From the IMG/VR virus record IMGVR_UViG_3300023179_000044, positions 1 to 64,000 of that record: a DNA stretch of 64,000 nucleotides. One strand, 5' to 3'. Shown here piece by piece: positions 6,934 through 64,000 of this stretch; within the stretch, counting starts at the first letter, position 1; every line of letters begins with the position of its first letter. The DNA comes from a virus. The notes under the pieces were generated by a model that was not told the origin of the DNA, did not search any database, and was given only the letters and a program-made list of their open reading frames with translations. The translations under genes were made by a program, and so were the position numbers.

Positions 6934-7395
6934 TTATTTTTTATATTTTCTATTTTCCTGAGAATGGTATGCTTCAACAGCATTTGCACTAGTCCTACTT
7001 TGCCAACTAAATAAACAATTAGAGCATTCGACCATTTTCATAGTTGACCATCTTCCTCCCGATGGTCTAGAAATTGTTTTTGTAGCTAAGAATTTTGTTT
7101 TTGATTTACAAAAAGGACATAAAGGAAATCGATTATGCCTCATTTCTTGACCTTCCCAATTAACGGAAAGAGTTCTACGAATTTGTTTGTAGTTTAATCC
7201 CCCCCAAATTCCCCATAGTTGTTTGCTATCAAGTGCCCACCTTAGACATTCTTTTCTTACAGGGCATACATCGCATAATTTTAAAGCAGGATATTGCTGA
7301 GAGGGTTTATTTGCAAAAAAATTTTTTAAAAGATCTTTATTTTCTGGTTTTCCACATTCAGCATCTTGCTCCCAGTCTTGAAACTCATTTAACAT
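6934..7395 (-). CDS. WhiB-like iron-sulfur regulator with C-terminal zinc ribbon
   Basis: The start is set at the ATG at 7395, which has GGAG six bases upstream and overlaps the previous gene by 11 bases. A start at 7410 lacks such a site. Residues 8-75 have the complete WhiB signature: C14, C41-x2-C44-x5-C50 for the [4Fe-4S] cluster, then WGIWGGL (61-67). WhiB proteins bind the sigma factor region 4 and DNA to control transcription, and phage copies (for example WhiBTM4) interfere with host WhiB. Unusually, a second metal site follows: CPFC and, some 30 residues on, CSNC, a zinc-ribbon arrangement. The protein is therefore longer (153 aa) than standard WhiB. Expression is probably coupled to the gene at 7385-7735. 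Confidence 0.9.
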   Translation of the reverse strand: MLNEFQDWEQDAECGKPENKDLLKNFFANKPSQQYPALKLCDVCPVRKECLRWALDSKQLWGIWGGLNYKQIRRTLSVNWEGQEMRHNRFPLCPFCKSKTKFLATKTISRPSGGRWSTMKMVECSNCLFSWQSRTSANAVEAYHSQENRKYKK

Positions 7396-7735
7396 TAAAA
7401 ATCTCCACATAGGTTATTGGAGTAATATTTGTTAAATTATCTTCAATTTCTGATAAACCATCTTTATTACAAATATATTGTTTCTCAGATAAGGAAGAAT
7501 ATCCTATATATGATTGATTACAAACTCCAGAAGCAATTAAAAAGAATCCATCAGATAAAGATTGAGATATTCCTTCACGCTGAATAGAAGAAGCTAAAGC
7601 TTTTCTTACAATTTCATGCTCAATATCAACATGATCTTCGGTATAAAAAACTATAGACCCTTTATCAGATAATAGGGATTCTTCATCATCCCATATAAAC
7701 CAAAGGGATTCACCAATTCTTGAATCTTTACTCAT
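7385..7735 (-). CDS. Hypothetical protein, 116 aa, coupled to WhiB
   Basis: I do not recognise a family. The product is acidic, starts MSKDSRIGESLWFIWDDEES and has alternating hydrophobic strands in its second half (FFLIASGVCNQSYIGYSS). It lacks membrane segments and a signal peptide. Its final 11 bases overlap the start of the WhiB gene, so the two are almost certainly co-translated and may act together. It is first in a two-gene leftward unit preceded by the inverted repeat at 7769-7801. Confidence 0.6.
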   Translation of the reverse strand: MSKDSRIGESLWFIWDDEESLLSDKGSIVFYTEDHVDIEHEIVRKALASSIQREGISQSLSDGFFLIASGVCNQSYIGYSSLSEKQYICNKDGLSEIEDNLTNITPITYVEIFNVK

Positions 7736-7768
7736 GTAAAGATTTTACAATAAAGTTATATTTTAGTG

Positions 7769-7801
7769 CAGTATAGTTACCGTAAATTACAAATTATACT
7801 G
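7769..7801. promoter_or_regulatory. Inverted repeat and -10-like element before the WhiB unit
   Basis: CAGTATA (7769-7775) and TATACTG (7795-7801) are perfect inverted copies with a 19-base spacer. Read on the minus strand the first arm supplies TATACT, a five-of-six -10 match, about 35 bases ahead of the ATG at 7735. The second arm overlaps the stop of the upstream gene. It may be a promoter with an operator for the WhiB-containing unit. The -35 region is poor. Confidence 0.35.
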
Positions 7802-59600: not shown

Positions 59601-62600
59601 TCGACACTTTTTCTTTCAGCCTCGGGACTCATATTAGAAAAAAGTTGACCAGTAGTATTTTTCTTGTCTTTAAAAGTCTCTAATTCTCCTACTTCATTAC
59701 CAAAAGCCGATCCCTTACGCTCGCCTCTGGCACGATATAGAAGAGAACCTCCGGAGTCTATACGAACTGGATTTCCATCTTTGTCATAACTTAAATTGTC
59801 GTATCCAGTACCAACAACGTCCCAGTTGCCTAGCCATGCATCTATTGCAAACCCGTCGAATGCCGGATCGTTGGGGTCCACCCCATTATTTATTCTTTCT
59901 GCTACTGAAGTTAAAGGAGTGGTTTTCCAATCAGTGTAAGTTACTTGTTTACTACGCATTAGGCCTTTTTTAACTTCTAATGCGTCGATTCCGGCTTCTT
60001 TATATAATGCAGAAGCGAGTGCTTCATTATCTCCACGGTTTTTATCTTGGATCTTTACATAGAAAATATTTCCAGTATTTGGATCTTGATATTTTCCACC
60101 AGGATTAGAACCAAGAGGTCCAGAAATTTGTTTAAAGTTAGTAAAATCTAACTCGGGGGTTTCAGATTTTTTAAGCTCTTCACTTAACTCGGGTTTTAAC
60201 TTATTTTCTGCAGATTCTATAATAGGTTCTATTTTTTCTACATTTTTAAGACGAGAGTCATTTGGATCGTGGCCACGGCTGACAAAGAAAGGTTTACCTA
60301 TTAGCTCTTGCATAGAAGAGAGGACCTTAAGCGATCTGTCTACTTCATCTCCAGCTTCTGGATTATCAAAGTATTTTTCAGCTCCTCCTCCAATATAATG
60401 AAGTGATTCACCCTTTAAACGCCATTTTTGATTACCATTTTTATCTTTAAATGATTCAAATAATCTATAAAACCTATCAGAACGAGGTGTCTCCGAGCCC
60501 CAGTCGCGTTCCCATGCACCTTCACCATAAAGTTCGTCATATTTAGCTGGAAGAGCACCTTTTGTTAAACCATTTTCTTCATAAAAAGATGCCCAGTCGC
60601 GGCCATCACCAAAAGGACTGCTATCTAGTGCATAGTAATCGAACTGGCCTAGTGGTTTAAGATGTCTAAATGGGCTTCCTCCACCACTTCTATCAAACTT
60701 CTCATTTGGGCCAACCTTTAGATCCTTTAAATTAAACCACGGAGCATTTTCTGGGTTTGGAATCTCTAAATCACCAAGTCTAGTAACTCTACCTGGAATT
60801 GACGTAACTTCGGGGCTTATTACAGCACCAATTTCATCAGAAATACGGCTAAAACCAAGTAGACCAGTTATTTCATCGGGTCTAGCTTTAATTTCATAAC
60901 GACCAGTATTTTTCCCTTTATCTCCTTTTCCACGTTCAACGTTATAATCAAAAGCCATATACCTATCAAGTGAAGCGTAACCAGCGGCGGCATCGGCTTC
61001 TGTATCTTTATGGTGAATATTATTTCTATAAAAAGAAATAAATCCTCCAGGCTTAACTCCTAAAAATTTTTCAGCATAAAGTTGATTAACTTTTTTGGCT
61101 AAAGGTGAAATATCTTTTGGATCGCTATACTTAGTCATTAAATCTGTGGCAATATGATTACTTAGATAATCCCAGAAAAGATTTTTATCGGTAAGTTCGC
61201 CATATACCGTTTTTAAAAGTTCAGGGTTTTCTTCTTTAATCTGATCGAAGAGACTCCTATACTGAGCACCAACAACTTCTTCAATATCTTTTGGACTTCT
61301 AATTAAAGGGAAGCGACCCTTTTTTCTAAGATTGTTTGCGGCAACAGAACGAATATTCTTAAGCGCGTCATCCCCAGAAACTTCATCAACCAGCTGGTCT
61401 GGAGAGACCGGCTTTATAAAATTAAGCCCTTCGCTTGCTAAGTGTAAACGTATACGTTCATTCTGTTCTTCAGCAATAGCTGCCATTTTTGGAGATAACT
61501 CGGTAACAAATGGTCCTAGTTCTGGTCTTTCGGATTTTTGTTTTACAAGTTTATCTGCAATATCAGCTGGAGATTCTTTTGTAACTTCTGGAGATGGTGG
61601 CGAAGTTTCTTTTGGTGGTTCTCCTTCTGGTGCTTTAGGCGGATTTCCTTTAATACCAACTTCACCTTCTACTTCACGCTTAGGAGCAGGCTTAGGATTA
61701 GCGGAAGTAGCGCCTAGAGTCTGTCTAGGAACACCAACATAGTCATTATATTCATTTGCAAGTTTAAGAACATCCTCATGATCAAGATCAACAACGACAA
61801 CATTTAAATCAATTGGCTTATCCCCCATCTCCTGCGCAGCCAAAGCACCAGCCCAACGGTGGTGACCATCGATGACATACCCGTCACGGCTTACATATAG
61901 AACTGCTTGATCAAACTTTGCTCTACCTTCTGGAGTTAGGAATGCCTGAGCAATACCTCCAACATTTCCCATATCCATTTCTGACTGAACTGGTGTAAGT
62001 TGATCTGGTGTTTTTACATCTCTAGTGTGTTTGATATTAAGTTCATCAAGAATTTTTTCAAATTGTTTTTGATCAGCATCAGTACCAAGCTGCGGCATTA
62101 ATCCACGTTCAGCACCTAAATTGTTATTTGTATAGTTTTCTTTACCATACATCTTCATATTCGTAACATCTACACCATTGGTTCGATATTTACGAGTTAG
62201 ACTTTGCATTTCTTCACTACTTAAAGGACTTCCATTTTTAGATCTTAAAAATGAAAGTAATGAATTAGCTCTTTCCTCATTTAAAAGCCCAGAACTTATA
62301 GCTCTGCGGAGTCTGTTGTATTGCCTCGGCTCTAATTTCTTTAGTTCATCATCTAGTTCTCTAGCTAGTTCAGCTGCTCCTCCTATAGCATTCTCATCTG
62401 CACCAATATACTTTCTATCTGCAGCTGCAATTTTTAGAGCTTCTACCCAAGTATCTTTGTCTACTTCAATAAATCCGCCATCATAAAGAACTTCATACGC
62501 TTCCTGAGGATCAGTTATATCTGTTCTTACCTCTGATGGGTCAATTTCGTTTAGATCCCAGAAACCGCCCTCGTGTCTAGTTGGAGCTGTGGGGCTAGAC

Positions 62601-64000
62601 TCATCTTTAAATTCAGGCTTAAACTCTACTTTTCTTCCATAGCCGTCAAGTACTCGATTATTTTGAATATCACGAATACGTCGATTTGCCTTAGTTTTAT
62701 CAACGTGGGTGAGTTTATCAGCTGGAATTATATTTCCACTAGAGTCAACGTACCACTCTAAAGGCTTACCATCAGTATCGGTTTCACCCTCTACATCAGG
62801 TATCTCATATATAGGCTCTTTTTTCCTCGGCTCCGGAGGTGGTTTTATTGGCGGTGACTCGGATGGGTTTCCTTTGATACCAACTTCACCAGCAACTTCA
62901 CGGTCAGGAACTTCTTTTTCTTCAAATTTTTGGCTAAGGTCAGCCTTTTTAACACCAGCAAAATCAGTAAACTCGTTGGCTAAACGGATACCTTCGCCGT
63001 GATCCATATCAACTACAACAACATTTAGTTCAATGTCTTCCCCAAGCTCGTCCTGAGCAATAAGTGCAGCAGCCCAGCGGTGGTGACCATCAATAACATA
63101 CCCATCTCTAGTTACATAAATGGGGAGTTTTCTAAGTTTTTCTCTTGACTCCGGATTTAAGAAACCCTGAGCAATTCCACCAACCTTACCCATGTCCATT
63201 TCTGACTGAATAGGTGTCAACTGGTCAGGAGTCATCAGTCCATCGGTTATTTTAATACCATTGTCAGCGCAATATTTTCTAAATAACTTAGCGTCGTTGT
63301 CATCTCCAAGTTGTGGCATCAAACCACGAGGAGCACCTAGGTTGTTCTGGGTATAGTTAGTCGAATTACCCATCTGAAGATTTGTAAGGTCGACTCCGAG
63401 ATTACGGAACTTCCTATGTACTTGCCTCATTTCGTCTTTAGTTAAGGCTTCGCCGTTCTTACCGTTAACTAGGTCTATTAGGGCTCTGGCTTTTTCTTCA
63501 TTTAAGTCGGATGGCTTCACAGCACGAAGAATTTTTGCTTTTTGTTTTGTTGGAAGTTTATCTAAAGTATCTAGAACTTCCTGAGCAAGTGCAGATTTTC
63601 CGATCGCATTCTTGTCTTTTTTTATGTACTTGGAATCCGCTGCTGCAATTCTAAAAGCGTTCCAAGCAATTTCTGGAGCAGCTTGACAAACTTCTCCGTC
63701 ATACATAAGCTCATACAGTTCTTGAGCATCTTTTACGTCTCTAATTACATCGGCTTCAGTAATTTCATTTTTATCAATGAAGCCCCTCTCGTGTCTTACT
63801 TCTTGAACTCTAGGATCAGCTGATTCACGATTTTCAAATTTAAATTTTACTTCTCGACCATTTCCGTCAAGAATTCTATTATTTTCTATATCTCGAATAC
63901 GAAGATTTTCTGGAATTCTGCGAGATGGGTCTAGTTTATCTTCACTAATAACCATTCCATCTTCATCAACCCACCAAGCTAGAGATGGATTTTTAGAAAT
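53645..64000 (-). CDS. Giant polyvalent protein (ParB, kinase, ART, DUF3626-like domains), 5' end outside window
   Basis: At least 3451 codons are visible. The frame is open to base 64000, and the 15 codons before the ATG at 63955 match an internal repeat (LAWWVDEDG against LEWYVDSSG), so the true start lies outside. Counting from that ATG: ParB-like domains at 252-345 and 658-750 (YVIDGHHRW), a possible ART-like fold near 970-1050 (R977, S995, E1041), a HipA/PI3K-like kinase domain 1274-1495 (IDAWLGNWD, RIDSGG with D1400), ART 1 at 1570-1690 (R1579, S1610, E1660-K-E1662), a degenerate ParB-like fold 1815-1895, ART 2 at 1999-2125 (R2012, S2043, E2095-K-E2097), and three DUF3626-like modules (EAQIHGG at 2555, 2961, 3381). 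The architecture fits an injected effector; substrates are unknown. Confidence 0.85.
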   Translation of the reverse strand: MSKNPSLAWWVDEDGMVISEDKLDPSRRIPENLRIRDIENNRILDGNGREVKFKFENRESADPRVQEVRHERGFIDKNEITEADVIRDVKDAQELYELMYDGEVCQAAPEIAWNAFRIAAADSKYIKKDKNAIGKSALAQEVLDTLDKLPTKQKAKILRAVKPSDLNEEKARALIDLVNGKNGEALTKDEMRQVHRKFRNLGVDLTNLQMGNSTNYTQNNLGAPRGLMPQLGDDNDAKLFRKYCADNGIKITDGLMTPDQLTPIQSEMDMGKVGGIAQGFLNPESREKLRKLPIYVTRDGYVIDGHHRWAAALIAQDELGEDIELNVVVVDMDHGEGIRLANEFTDFAGVKKADLSQKFEEKEVPDREVAGEVGIKGNPSESPPIKPPPEPRKKEPIYEIPDVEGETDTDGKPLEWYVDSSGNIIPADKLTHVDKTKANRRIRDIQNNRVLDGYGRKVEFKPEFKDESSPTAPTRHEGGFWDLNEIDPSEVRTDITDPQEAYEVLYDGGFIEVDKDTWVEALKIAAADRKYIGADENAIGGAAELARELDDELKKLEPRQYNRLRRAISSGLLNEERANSLLSFLRSKNGSPLSSEEMQSLTRKYRTNGVDVTNMKMYGKENYTNNNLGAERGLMPQLGTDADQKQFEKILDELNIKHTRDVKTPDQLTPVQSEMDMGNVGGIAQAFLTPEGRAKFDQAVLYVSRDGYVIDGHHRWAGALAAQEMGDKPIDLNVVVVDLDHEDVLKLANEYNDYVGVPRQTLGATSANPKPAPKREVEGEVGIKGNPPKAPEGEPPKETSPPSPEVTKESPADIADKLVKQKSERPELGPFVTELSPKMAAIAEEQNERIRLHLASEGLNFIKPVSPDQLVDEVSGDDALKNIRSVAANNLRKKGRFPLIRSPKDIEEVVGAQYRSLFDQIKEENPELLKTVYGELTDKNLFWDYLSNHIATDLMTKYSDPKDISPLAKKVNQLYAEKFLGVKPGGFISFYRNNIHHKDTEADAAAGYASLDRYMAFDYNVERGKGDKGKNTGRYEIKARPDEITGLLGFSRISDEIGAVISPEVTSIPGRVTRLGDLEIPNPENAPWFNLKDLKVGPNEKFDRSGGGSPFRHLKPLGQFDYYALDSSPFGDGRDWASFYEENGLTKGALPAKYDELYGEGAWERDWGSETPRSDRFYRLFESFKDKNGNQKWRLKGESLHYIGGGAEKYFDNPEAGDEVDRSLKVLSSMQELIGKPFFVSRGHDPNDSRLKNVEKIEPIIESAENKLKPELSEELKKSETPELDFTNFKQISGPLGSNPGGKYQDPNTGNIFYVKIQDKNRGDNEALASALYKEAGIDALEVKKGLMRSKQVTYTDWKTTPLTSVAERINNGVDPNDPAFDGFAIDAWLGNWDVVGTGYDNLSYDKDGNPVRIDSGGSLLYRARGERKGSAFGNEVGELETFKDKKNTTGQLFSNMSPEAERKSVEKLRAITPEKIDELVDKFISDPADNKELKEKLKARREFILNKYPESEEKTPETANDEFDLPIPPRTDEENESIELYQSPSYYRLAKYMADPTNGTITEEQKAKFDKAIPHLKKVTTSEELPEGTKLYRGTFAVFSSDKYAQFNQLQPGDIVSSDNTFTSTTRDKSVAIDFAALGDQRVAPTKRIVFDITTENGATGAVVGASGDMYDLEKEVVLPIGAQLEVIGVEKDSNSNLTIKLKYKNTNTTVKKENSSEKLSNLSIWGRQKLRDIKASLRGEIYDTQAINLINEYGNSDEGLETLQSLLHKYGLYRKVTLNEPYLDAVRQKTSEYSKQEDPNLNIDLKPGTKRAPFGILNGGNLGTVGYVRPGDVLSKVDNADFGLVTGENKTKASEVAKDIKDNGFREPIEILYNPNTEKYSLNNSDDVVKLIAARDNGGRPTPIRIKISESSGRYDENTVLNPIFFTSFARIPAGFGPPDGDPIWQIQPESPDMGGIDQLPTPDRTNEEKEAITGYQKGQYLLIKDFIKGEEFDSDTSESVNKLVSNLKKLTESEEIPEGTKLYRGTIARRDSELRAQLMQLKPGDEVISSDIFTSTSLDPEVAEGFAILDQNNKDSNTNSAVIFEIKTEKGATGSPIEPDGTVYDREKEVILPIAAKFTVSEVFEDADGTLRIRVKYGKKQFLPEWPEEQYKSDGVTDVTFASPQERDDVYKYFKDARLSKPTEDLLDELINREDQKIDSNTIKELSDKINADIEEYDKIYKRPKEPVKKEDFTSNEINASAIPYSIEDELEKYLSDKSIIFTDKKAYDDASDPDDPTFYYDPYSILKRLKDRDEALKVNEGYKEPDQTVFDFAKEWFEKNKEKFLYINRKKLKEKLFAAAESIDERTSNDFMWKKDAIYNAITTYQDYVNKKAVDEMFLEYEKAFPGQSEDAKSVRKMMDAAEDLSNAIKNASVTIAIDEKFIENLFKDGRIKSQFETAKSRGLYDPIKRAISEFSVNGVPIDIDDSLRPIYGYLGLESTPELYRNLNPFSTDYRLESPNLYQYGNVRVVLKSSIKNRTRFTAKDSLSAEFVASDLTKVDRDSVLKSGVLEIPPSTLGDFGSNYLEAQIHGGVSLDDIEKFVIPAYSDNDKEALLEVAKNIEDLMKNYGISIPVEVVQVTRERPSLDELEEQQKPKVAIPSTQEEIISLLKNYSAMDSIKEYIDPDKKFIKKLTEPDSDGDPIPNKSEDITGQVMSTVLTVDYLDRTSYGHSQEAIDFAQDWIKRNKDRFIYFDIKEFNKIYKDKLSPIEFDAIKEQLNNYAMHENTMLLLEMYKEMKNEVSENNLPKIVSGIDLIDSNLSLIADKLDNAEIVVAVDEKTFAKILEDKRIKTQFETQFSNGLFDNSKRTVVERALMGLPIDLDPKNRPIYGYLVYPTDDAPKRLFGTSNRFNDIDSSPTFGYGDVKLILKKSVRDRSTATMNDSFDRAFQAIPLGEKIDPDSLYAAGIIGYLPQVENNLDYGNGAYHPSYTEAQIHGGISSDEIETIILDDRNSSKADMEAEKARIQKELDKAGISIPIMFSSEYKNKNKNPNQENKNRTDITGTRLSDDARQELSSVISNLDDAKHNASDKAYKEIATELGRDLSLPWDTDRTPEGRETYEYIRSAIQFKKDSPDTDEEKELLRIKNLYKDKMDNDQKYTEALIAAHSNPLYRDIMEALTSKTNNFDGSTIAYALLERGLTRQRPRISKEDLDQFAITTPDYADDEVNSQVYDVTVDPEQSVEITNKDLKEFSESGAVSVIMPSRALEKVLEEGRIKTVHETKRSMAGVSNEEYRALRVLYESMAFGYEGDSPLEGRPVYGSLASATLPPPEDALKIYGGSEPAQVVLKPEVKKRTTISDRDSLNNFDETTPLTDPEFKLSYLTQMAAIYREATGKNFFESENFAKFGSIEAQIHGGVTLDDIEKVVFYEMPSVEMIDLLTSKGIIWEFSSKKPYSKPRSFGGGLF
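53690..56755 (-). repeat. Three diverged DUF3626-like modules in tandem
   Basis: Each module (about 56141-56755, 54926-55561, 53696-54280) contains E-x-GR/KRIK-x-x-x-ET, RP(I/V)YG(Y/S)L, a Val-rich strand with a basic end (VVLKSS, LILKKS, VVLKPE), DS(L/F) and EAQIHGG(V/I)S/T. The order and spacing agree with DUF3626. The copies are diverged at the DNA level, an old internal triplication. Confidence 0.8.
61631..64000 (-). repeat. Tandem duplication of a roughly 380-residue ParB-containing block
   Basis: Block A (about 62846-64000, cut by the window edge) and block B (about 61631-62767) share IRDI(E/Q)NNR(I/V)LDG, IAAADxKYI, NNLGAxRGLMPQLG, QSEMDMGxVGGIAQ, GYVIDGHHRWA and NVVVVDxDH. Both end with EVGIKGNP and a Pro-rich linker. 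Confidence 0.9.

Follow-up and report, generated by a model that had tools for sequence, protein, structure and literature searches.

The window, by which we mean the whole stretch of DNA analysed, covers 64 kb of a virus record that is 103,878 bases long and carries on its minus strand, at positions 6934–7395 (stop codon included), a gene for a WhiB protein with an appended putative zinc ribbon (hereafter WhiB-ribbon), the sole WhiB found in that record. The gene was assigned from the list of open reading frames, from a match to Pfam Whib (1.5e-15) and from its conserved relatives; the match to this family (PF02467) scored 57.9 bits against a cut-off of 23.6, which places the protein in the Whib family. 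The product of 153 amino acids begins at an ATG at 7395, an earlier ATG at 7410 gives an alternative reading frame of 6934–7410, and frame 1 of the plus strand contains stops throughout 6934–7395. The WhiB core, delimited by the Pfam match and by alignment of the predicted model to WhiB1 of 6ono, extends over residues 8–71 (7183–7374, minus strand) and contains the cluster cysteines C14 and C41-x2-C44-x5-C50 in the order C...CxxCx5C, followed by the turn GIWGG at residues 62–66, which conforms to G[VI]WGG. A conserved basic linker (residues 72–90; 7126–7182, minus strand) leads into the ribbon and its C-terminal helix (residues 91–152; 6940–7125, minus strand), where the cysteine pairs C93-x2-C96 and C124-x2-C127 lie 31 residues apart from first cysteine to first cysteine, that is, with the spacing CX2C-X27-CX2C, and where a W-x-SRTSAN motif at residues 131–138 falls in the conserved helix that closes the ribbon. 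From residue 72 to the end the protein is basic, with a net charge of +11 in the window and a median of +9 (range +1 to +22) among 100 proteins. The first-pass annotation, made from the letters alone, had described a complete WhiB core with an added C-terminal four-cysteine metal domain at these coordinates, and it was right in both respects, the strand being the minus one.

Directly upstream of whiB, and overlapping its start by 11 nt, lies a reading frame of 116 amino acids (7385–7735, minus strand), a homologue of which is found upstream of WhiB-ribbon in the relatives and which we refer to as the partner gene. The partner gene is preceded by a pyrimidine-dimer glycosylase gene, and a phage exonuclease gene lies downstream of the WhiB-ribbon gene in convergent orientation. 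A putative -10 hexamer, TAAAAT (7742–7747, minus strand), ends 6 nt before the partner ATG, as expected of a leaderless promoter, and a conserved box, TTGTAATTTACGGTA (7778–7792, minus strand), is located 30 nt upstream of this hexamer. Elsewhere in the window, at 61614–63232, three blocks are repeated at a spacing of 1221–1224 nt with 74–78% identity and resemble a duplicated gene.

Relatives of WhiB-ribbon were collected from IMG/VR by a protein scan, which gave 77 loci, and by a profile scan, which gave at least 364 relatives, the best 80 of which were taken. After removal of duplicates and incomplete copies, the set of 100 proteins consisted of the window protein, 94 distinct complete IMG/VR proteins, and the proteins of DSL-LC01 and of the phages Pumpernickel, Zooman, Cece, and A3Wally. 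All four core cysteines and all four ribbon cysteines were identical in 100 of the 100 distinct proteins, as were G114, R115, V122, F129, W131, S133, R134, S136, and N138, and this conservation ruled out a chance pairing of CxxC motifs. The core aromatic residues were slightly less constant (F26 in 97, F27 in 98, and W64 in 96 proteins), the tryptophan at position 64 being replaced by arginine in four Microbacterium phage proteins. Mean column identity was highest in the linker (0.80), followed by the ribbon with its helix (0.73), the WhiB core (0.69), and the tail (0.45). Ranking by whole-protein similarity favours relatives that bear the ribbon, and a sample drawn through the partner gene (the best 80 of 559 matches) provided a less biased check. 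A WhiB gene was located downstream of the partner in 78 of these 80 loci, the other two reaching contig ends, and both core and ribbon were present in 76 of the 78 downstream WhiBs; the two exceptions are one that extends beyond its contig and one that stops 19 nt before the contig end. The first-pass annotation had let its reading depend on whether close relatives conserve the CxxC pairs, and its refutation test fails because the ribbon cysteines were kept in both samples.

The fold was predicted with AlphaFold2 from 44 sequences (pLDDT 83.6), and the ribbon fold was read from this whole-protein model. Residues 7–77 of the model matched WhiB1 in its complex with sigma-A4 (6ono) with a Z score of 11.7 and an rmsd of 1.0 over 67 aligned residues, and WhiB3 bound to sigma-A4 (8cwt) with a Z score of 11.5; the structures of WhiB7 (7kim, 7kuf, and 7kug) and of WhiB3 (8cwt and 8cyf) share the same predicted fold (Z 7.1–11.5). 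The window protein is thus predicted to have a Wbl fold, and the likeness to the Wbl family extends to the four-cysteine core, the CxxCx5C spacing, and the G[IV]WGG turn. Whereas WhiB7 and WhiB3 carry an AT-hook or a short basic tail, however, the window protein carries a four-cysteine ribbon and a helix. In the model, the ribbon part consists of strands at residues 103–109, 118–124, and 130–132 followed by the helix, and residues 90–135 matched zinc ribbons of RNA polymerase subunits, TFIIS, and NrdR at Z scores of about 3. Because unrelated chemokine entries matched the same residues equally well (Z 3.5), the fold search alone did not settle the identity of the ribbon, and we call the predicted C-terminal domain a zinc ribbon from its cysteine pattern and its predicted strands.

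By sequence, the nearest ribbon families were Lar and VdcD. The Lar restriction alleviation family (PF14354), which resembles the window domain in having a CPxC...CxxC ribbon but differs from it in that the window ribbon is fused to WhiB, was rejected for the window protein at 20.5 bits against a cut-off of 28.6; it exceeded its cut-off in none of 18 phage records and gave a weak match (E-value up to 0.05) in 27 of 56 members. The VdcD decarboxylase subunit (NF041205) was likewise rejected, at 16.1 bits against a cut-off of 30. The Ogr/Delta late activators have the cysteine spacing CX2CX22CX4C, as against CX2C-X27-CX2C here, and were set aside; they were also absent from the 25 Pfam families listed of 31 matched. 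Neither WhiB-ribbon nor the partner matched a defence family.

Among 50,697 phage records, 570 matched WhiB-ribbon, and in 17 the match covered at least 80% of the protein. The full, end-to-end fusion, together with an upstream partner of the same family, was present in DSL-LC01, a metagenome assembly from Dishui Lake, and in the Microbacterium phages Pumpernickel, Zooman, Cece, and A3Wally. The search for the same fusion in freshwater phages that the first-pass annotation had proposed was therefore successful, in many virus contigs as well as in the lake genome DSL-LC01. Its statement that known phage WhiB proteins are short, on the other hand, did not hold: viral models named WhiB span 81–216 amino acids (50 models listed), and isolated Microbacterium phages already carry the fusion, as do Arthrobacter phages in a more distant form. 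The fusion is common in actinobacterial viruses from lake and soil, and its sequences are already deposited and public, labelled merely as WhiB.

The four Microbacterium proteins keep the ribbon cysteines and the W-x-SR-x-S-x-N landmarks, whereas their WhiB turn (loci L081, L082, L083, and L087) is GTRGG or GTRAG rather than G[IV]WGG, which shows that the tryptophan of the sigma contact is not universal in the family. Judged from these sequences, the loss of G[IV]WGG argues that the ribbon, rather than sigma docking, may be the more constrained part in Microbacterium phages. The Arthrobacter phages Atuin and Racecar encode a WhiB with a four-cysteine ribbon that keeps W-x2-R and N but is shorter and lacks GGRW, and their WhiB was related to the WhiB-ribbon family by hhalign with an E-value of 6e-24 spanning both domains. 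The WhiB of Thermobifida phage P1312 (L085, 1992–2432) has two CxxC pairs after the core in a different surrounding sequence. In bacteria, a first genome scan for the ribbon gave no match, a second gave none in the 80 WhiB loci fetched out of 129 related stretches, and a scan of 296 genomes of one class, run without a positive control, gave none.

At least one further WhiB was found in each of the nine related IMG/VR records (G001–G009) and in DSL-LC01 (W01), the total reaching three in G009 and W01, and seven other named phage records tested had a single WhiB each. These ten records contained 12 extra WhiB frames, 11 of 87–123 amino acids and one of 178 amino acids, and a cysteine after the WGG turn was found in none of the 12. 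As judged by sequence, G001–G009 and DSL-LC01 pair a ribbon-less WhiB with the ribbon-bearing one. Frames resembling Sigma70 region 4 were found in 13 of 17 phage records and exceeded the curated cut-off in three alone; the match in the record of the window lies outside the window, in a 206-amino-acid frame (G000, 69112–69180, minus strand), at 21.5 bits against a cut-off of 24.1.

A profile search within 300 nt placed a homologue of the partner directly upstream of WhiB-ribbon in all 101 distinct loci that could be tested, with two contig-edge loci and one locus with too little WhiB set aside, and a plain search for reading frames found a fitting upstream frame within 60 nt in 92 of 98 loci. 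The upstream gene of the Microbacterium phages was related to the partner by hhalign (E-value 2e-18), and that of DSL-LC01 was assigned to the family by eye, whereas the upstream gene of the Arthrobacter phages showed no detectable relation (hhalign probability 0.2%). The partner family had no match in PHROG (45 members) or in Pfam (three members tried). Its predicted structure (pLDDT 84) gave nothing convincing against solved structures, the best matches being 50S ribosomal chains (VIA Z 4.7), which we take to be uL23; a match at this level may reflect just a common arrangement. Against the sequences of the PDB, the partner gave a single match, to a designed protein, with an E-value of 0.19.

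In 70 of 137 distinct regions upstream of the partner, a TANNNT hexamer starts 12 or 13 nt ahead of the coding sequence; therefore, the operon transcript is probably leaderless. The box TTGTAATTTACGGTA, which has no other copy with fewer than 3 mismatches in the window, was present at 3 or fewer mismatches in 63 of the 137 regions as against 0.6% of mononucleotide shuffles, starting at -58 to -56 in 32, at -48 to -46 in 26, and elsewhere in 5. The gap from the box, TTGTAATYTACGGTA, to the -10 hexamer was 19–20 nt in 29 and 29–32 nt in 33 of 62 regions, with none between, and these two classes differ by one helical turn. In 18 sequences with diverged flanks, the mean identity was 93% in the box and 47 and 43% in the flanks. 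Copies were counted in 17 records of 6.8 to 154 kb from the clade around the window: 15 sites lay at the cassette, as placed by the WhiB coordinates, and six lay elsewhere, each with 2 mismatches, compared with seven sites for the reversed-pattern control. The box, being essentially single-copy in these records, is ruled out as a phage-wide promoter element, and from the sequences it looks like an operator-like element, essentially one per genome and helix-phased. The box carries the inverted symmetry GTA-N3-TAC, which is more in keeping with a dimer than with a Wbl protein that binds as a monomer. The first-pass annotation had linked the second metal domain to unusual promoter elements; a conserved, unusual promoter does exist, but it belongs to the WhiB-ribbon operon itself, its box being essentially single-copy.

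At 3 or fewer mismatches, the box was not found in 74 of the 137 upstream regions, including those of DSL-LC01 and the four Microbacterium phages, which differ from it at 5 to 8 positions, and because it is absent upstream of these 74 homologues it cannot be a general site for WhiB-ribbon. In a candidate host family (that of a Nanopelagicaceae bacterium), 10 of 61 genomes had a match; the 11 sites were rarer than the 38 of the reversed-pattern control, so the box is unsupported as a host element, and a 2.6-kb stretch around the single exact host copy gave no match to the partner or WhiB profile. A scan of viral contigs for the box gave at least 120 stretches, and a partner was located downstream in 21 of the 80 loci listed, while the remaining loci look like chance 15-mers. 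A second element, GGGACTTGTCAAG, was found before the -10 hexamer of some relatives; in the window, it gave 3-mismatch matches alone, 11 as against 11.8 expected. A further conserved string, about GGGACTTRTCAA, stands directly before the -10 hexamer in some of the regions with the gap of 29–32 nt, L010, L013, L032, and L175 among them.

The arrangement of the locus is best explained by a two-gene operon whose second gene encodes WhiB-ribbon, a product built of two metal domains. Wbl proteins are described as having a common interface with sigma-A4 and a DNA-contact motif that varies, an AT-hook in WhiB7 and an Arg-rich motif in WhiB3, and the AT-hook of WhiB7 as binding AT-rich DNA upstream of the -35 element (PMC10245118). 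Compared with WhiB7, the ribbon of the window protein occupies the sequence position of the AT-hook, on a basic stretch. We consider the chances about even that WhiB-ribbon is a phage regulator that docks on sigma-A4, with the ribbon as a contact to DNA or polymerase, and that it is encoded in an operon with the partner under a box of its own. The WhiB core, with its predicted fold, would hold a [4Fe-4S] cluster and would dock on region 4 of the host main sigma factor through the aromatic residues and G[IV]WGG, as do WhiB1, WhiB3, and WhiB7. The basic linker and ribbon would take the place of the AT-hook tail of WhiB7, and R115, W116, S133, R134, S136, and N138, which lie outside the metal site and are invariant or nearly so, may touch upstream DNA or another surface of RNA polymerase. 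The host polymerase would thereby be redirected to particular promoters during infection. In the simplest view, the operon box on its fixed helix face would be an autoregulatory operator with WhiB-ribbon as the candidate binder, and the partner, made in step with WhiB-ribbon, would probably bind or modulate it.

The role of the ribbon could also be different. It might serve to shape or stabilise the protein, or offer the partner a place to dock, without contact to DNA or polymerase; zinc ribbons often mediate protein-protein contacts, the partner gene adjoins in all 101 loci, and no DNA-binding relative can be named from fold matches this weak. This proposal nevertheless leaves aside the net positive charge and the invariant polar residues R115, S133, R134, S136, and N138 beyond the metal site, and the Arthrobacter phages keep a related ribbon although their upstream gene has no detectable relation to the partner, so that we regard it as quite improbable. 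A take-over of the host, in which the core occupies region 4 of sigma-A and the ribbon covers DNA or polymerase, shutting host promoters rather than activating phage ones, would agree with the presence of polymerase-bound ribbons among the weak ribbon matches and with the WhiB of TM4, which is cited as a transcriptional inhibitor of host WhiB2 (PMC10202952). The fixed helical phase of the box, however, suggests promoter-specific positive control, at least at the operon, and the second, short WhiB in all nine related IMG/VR records could do the blocking; we consider a take-over unlikely.

The box, in turn, may belong to another regulator, such as a phage sigma-70-like protein, the partner, or a host factor, with WhiB-ribbon acting elsewhere. 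The Sigma70 region-4-like frames described above, of which that in the record of the window is below the cut-off, and the inverted symmetry of the box speak for such a regulator, but an element of the sigma type would be expected at several promoters, whereas the box is essentially single-copy and is rarer than its control in the genomes of the candidate host family. We find this assignment possible, if on balance doubtful; it touches solely the proposed autoregulation of the operon and is compatible with the preferred reading of WhiB-ribbon as a sigma-A4-docking regulator. A more far-reaching version of the preferred reading, which we think distinctly unlikely in its entirety, is that the partner and WhiB-ribbon would together form a widespread actinophage promoter switch, autoregulated at the phased box, with the [4Fe-4S] domain gripping sigma-A4 of the host and the zinc ribbon recognising DNA; in the Microbacterium phages, the sigma-contact turn would have been lost, with the ribbon and partner acting alone.

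WhiB serves as a marker gene for calling freshwater actinophages (PMC6802176, PMC10202952), and the phage WhiB function as cited in PMC10202952 rests on one mycobacteriophage. The TM4 WhiB and the phages surveyed in PMC8612146 have the phage-encoded WhiB core in common with WhiB-ribbon, and the word zinc has no occurrence in the main text of that survey. In the openly licensed literature, we found no report of a fusion of WhiB and a zinc ribbon in a phage. Part of what is filed as WhiB has a second, invariant domain and is always accompanied by the partner gene in the loci tested, and in the clade around the window the WhiB-ribbon cassette also has a promoter element of its own. The size of the system (sigma-A4, WhiB-ribbon, the partner, and a 60-bp promoter) suits direct tests, and isolated Microbacterium phages with the fusion already exist.
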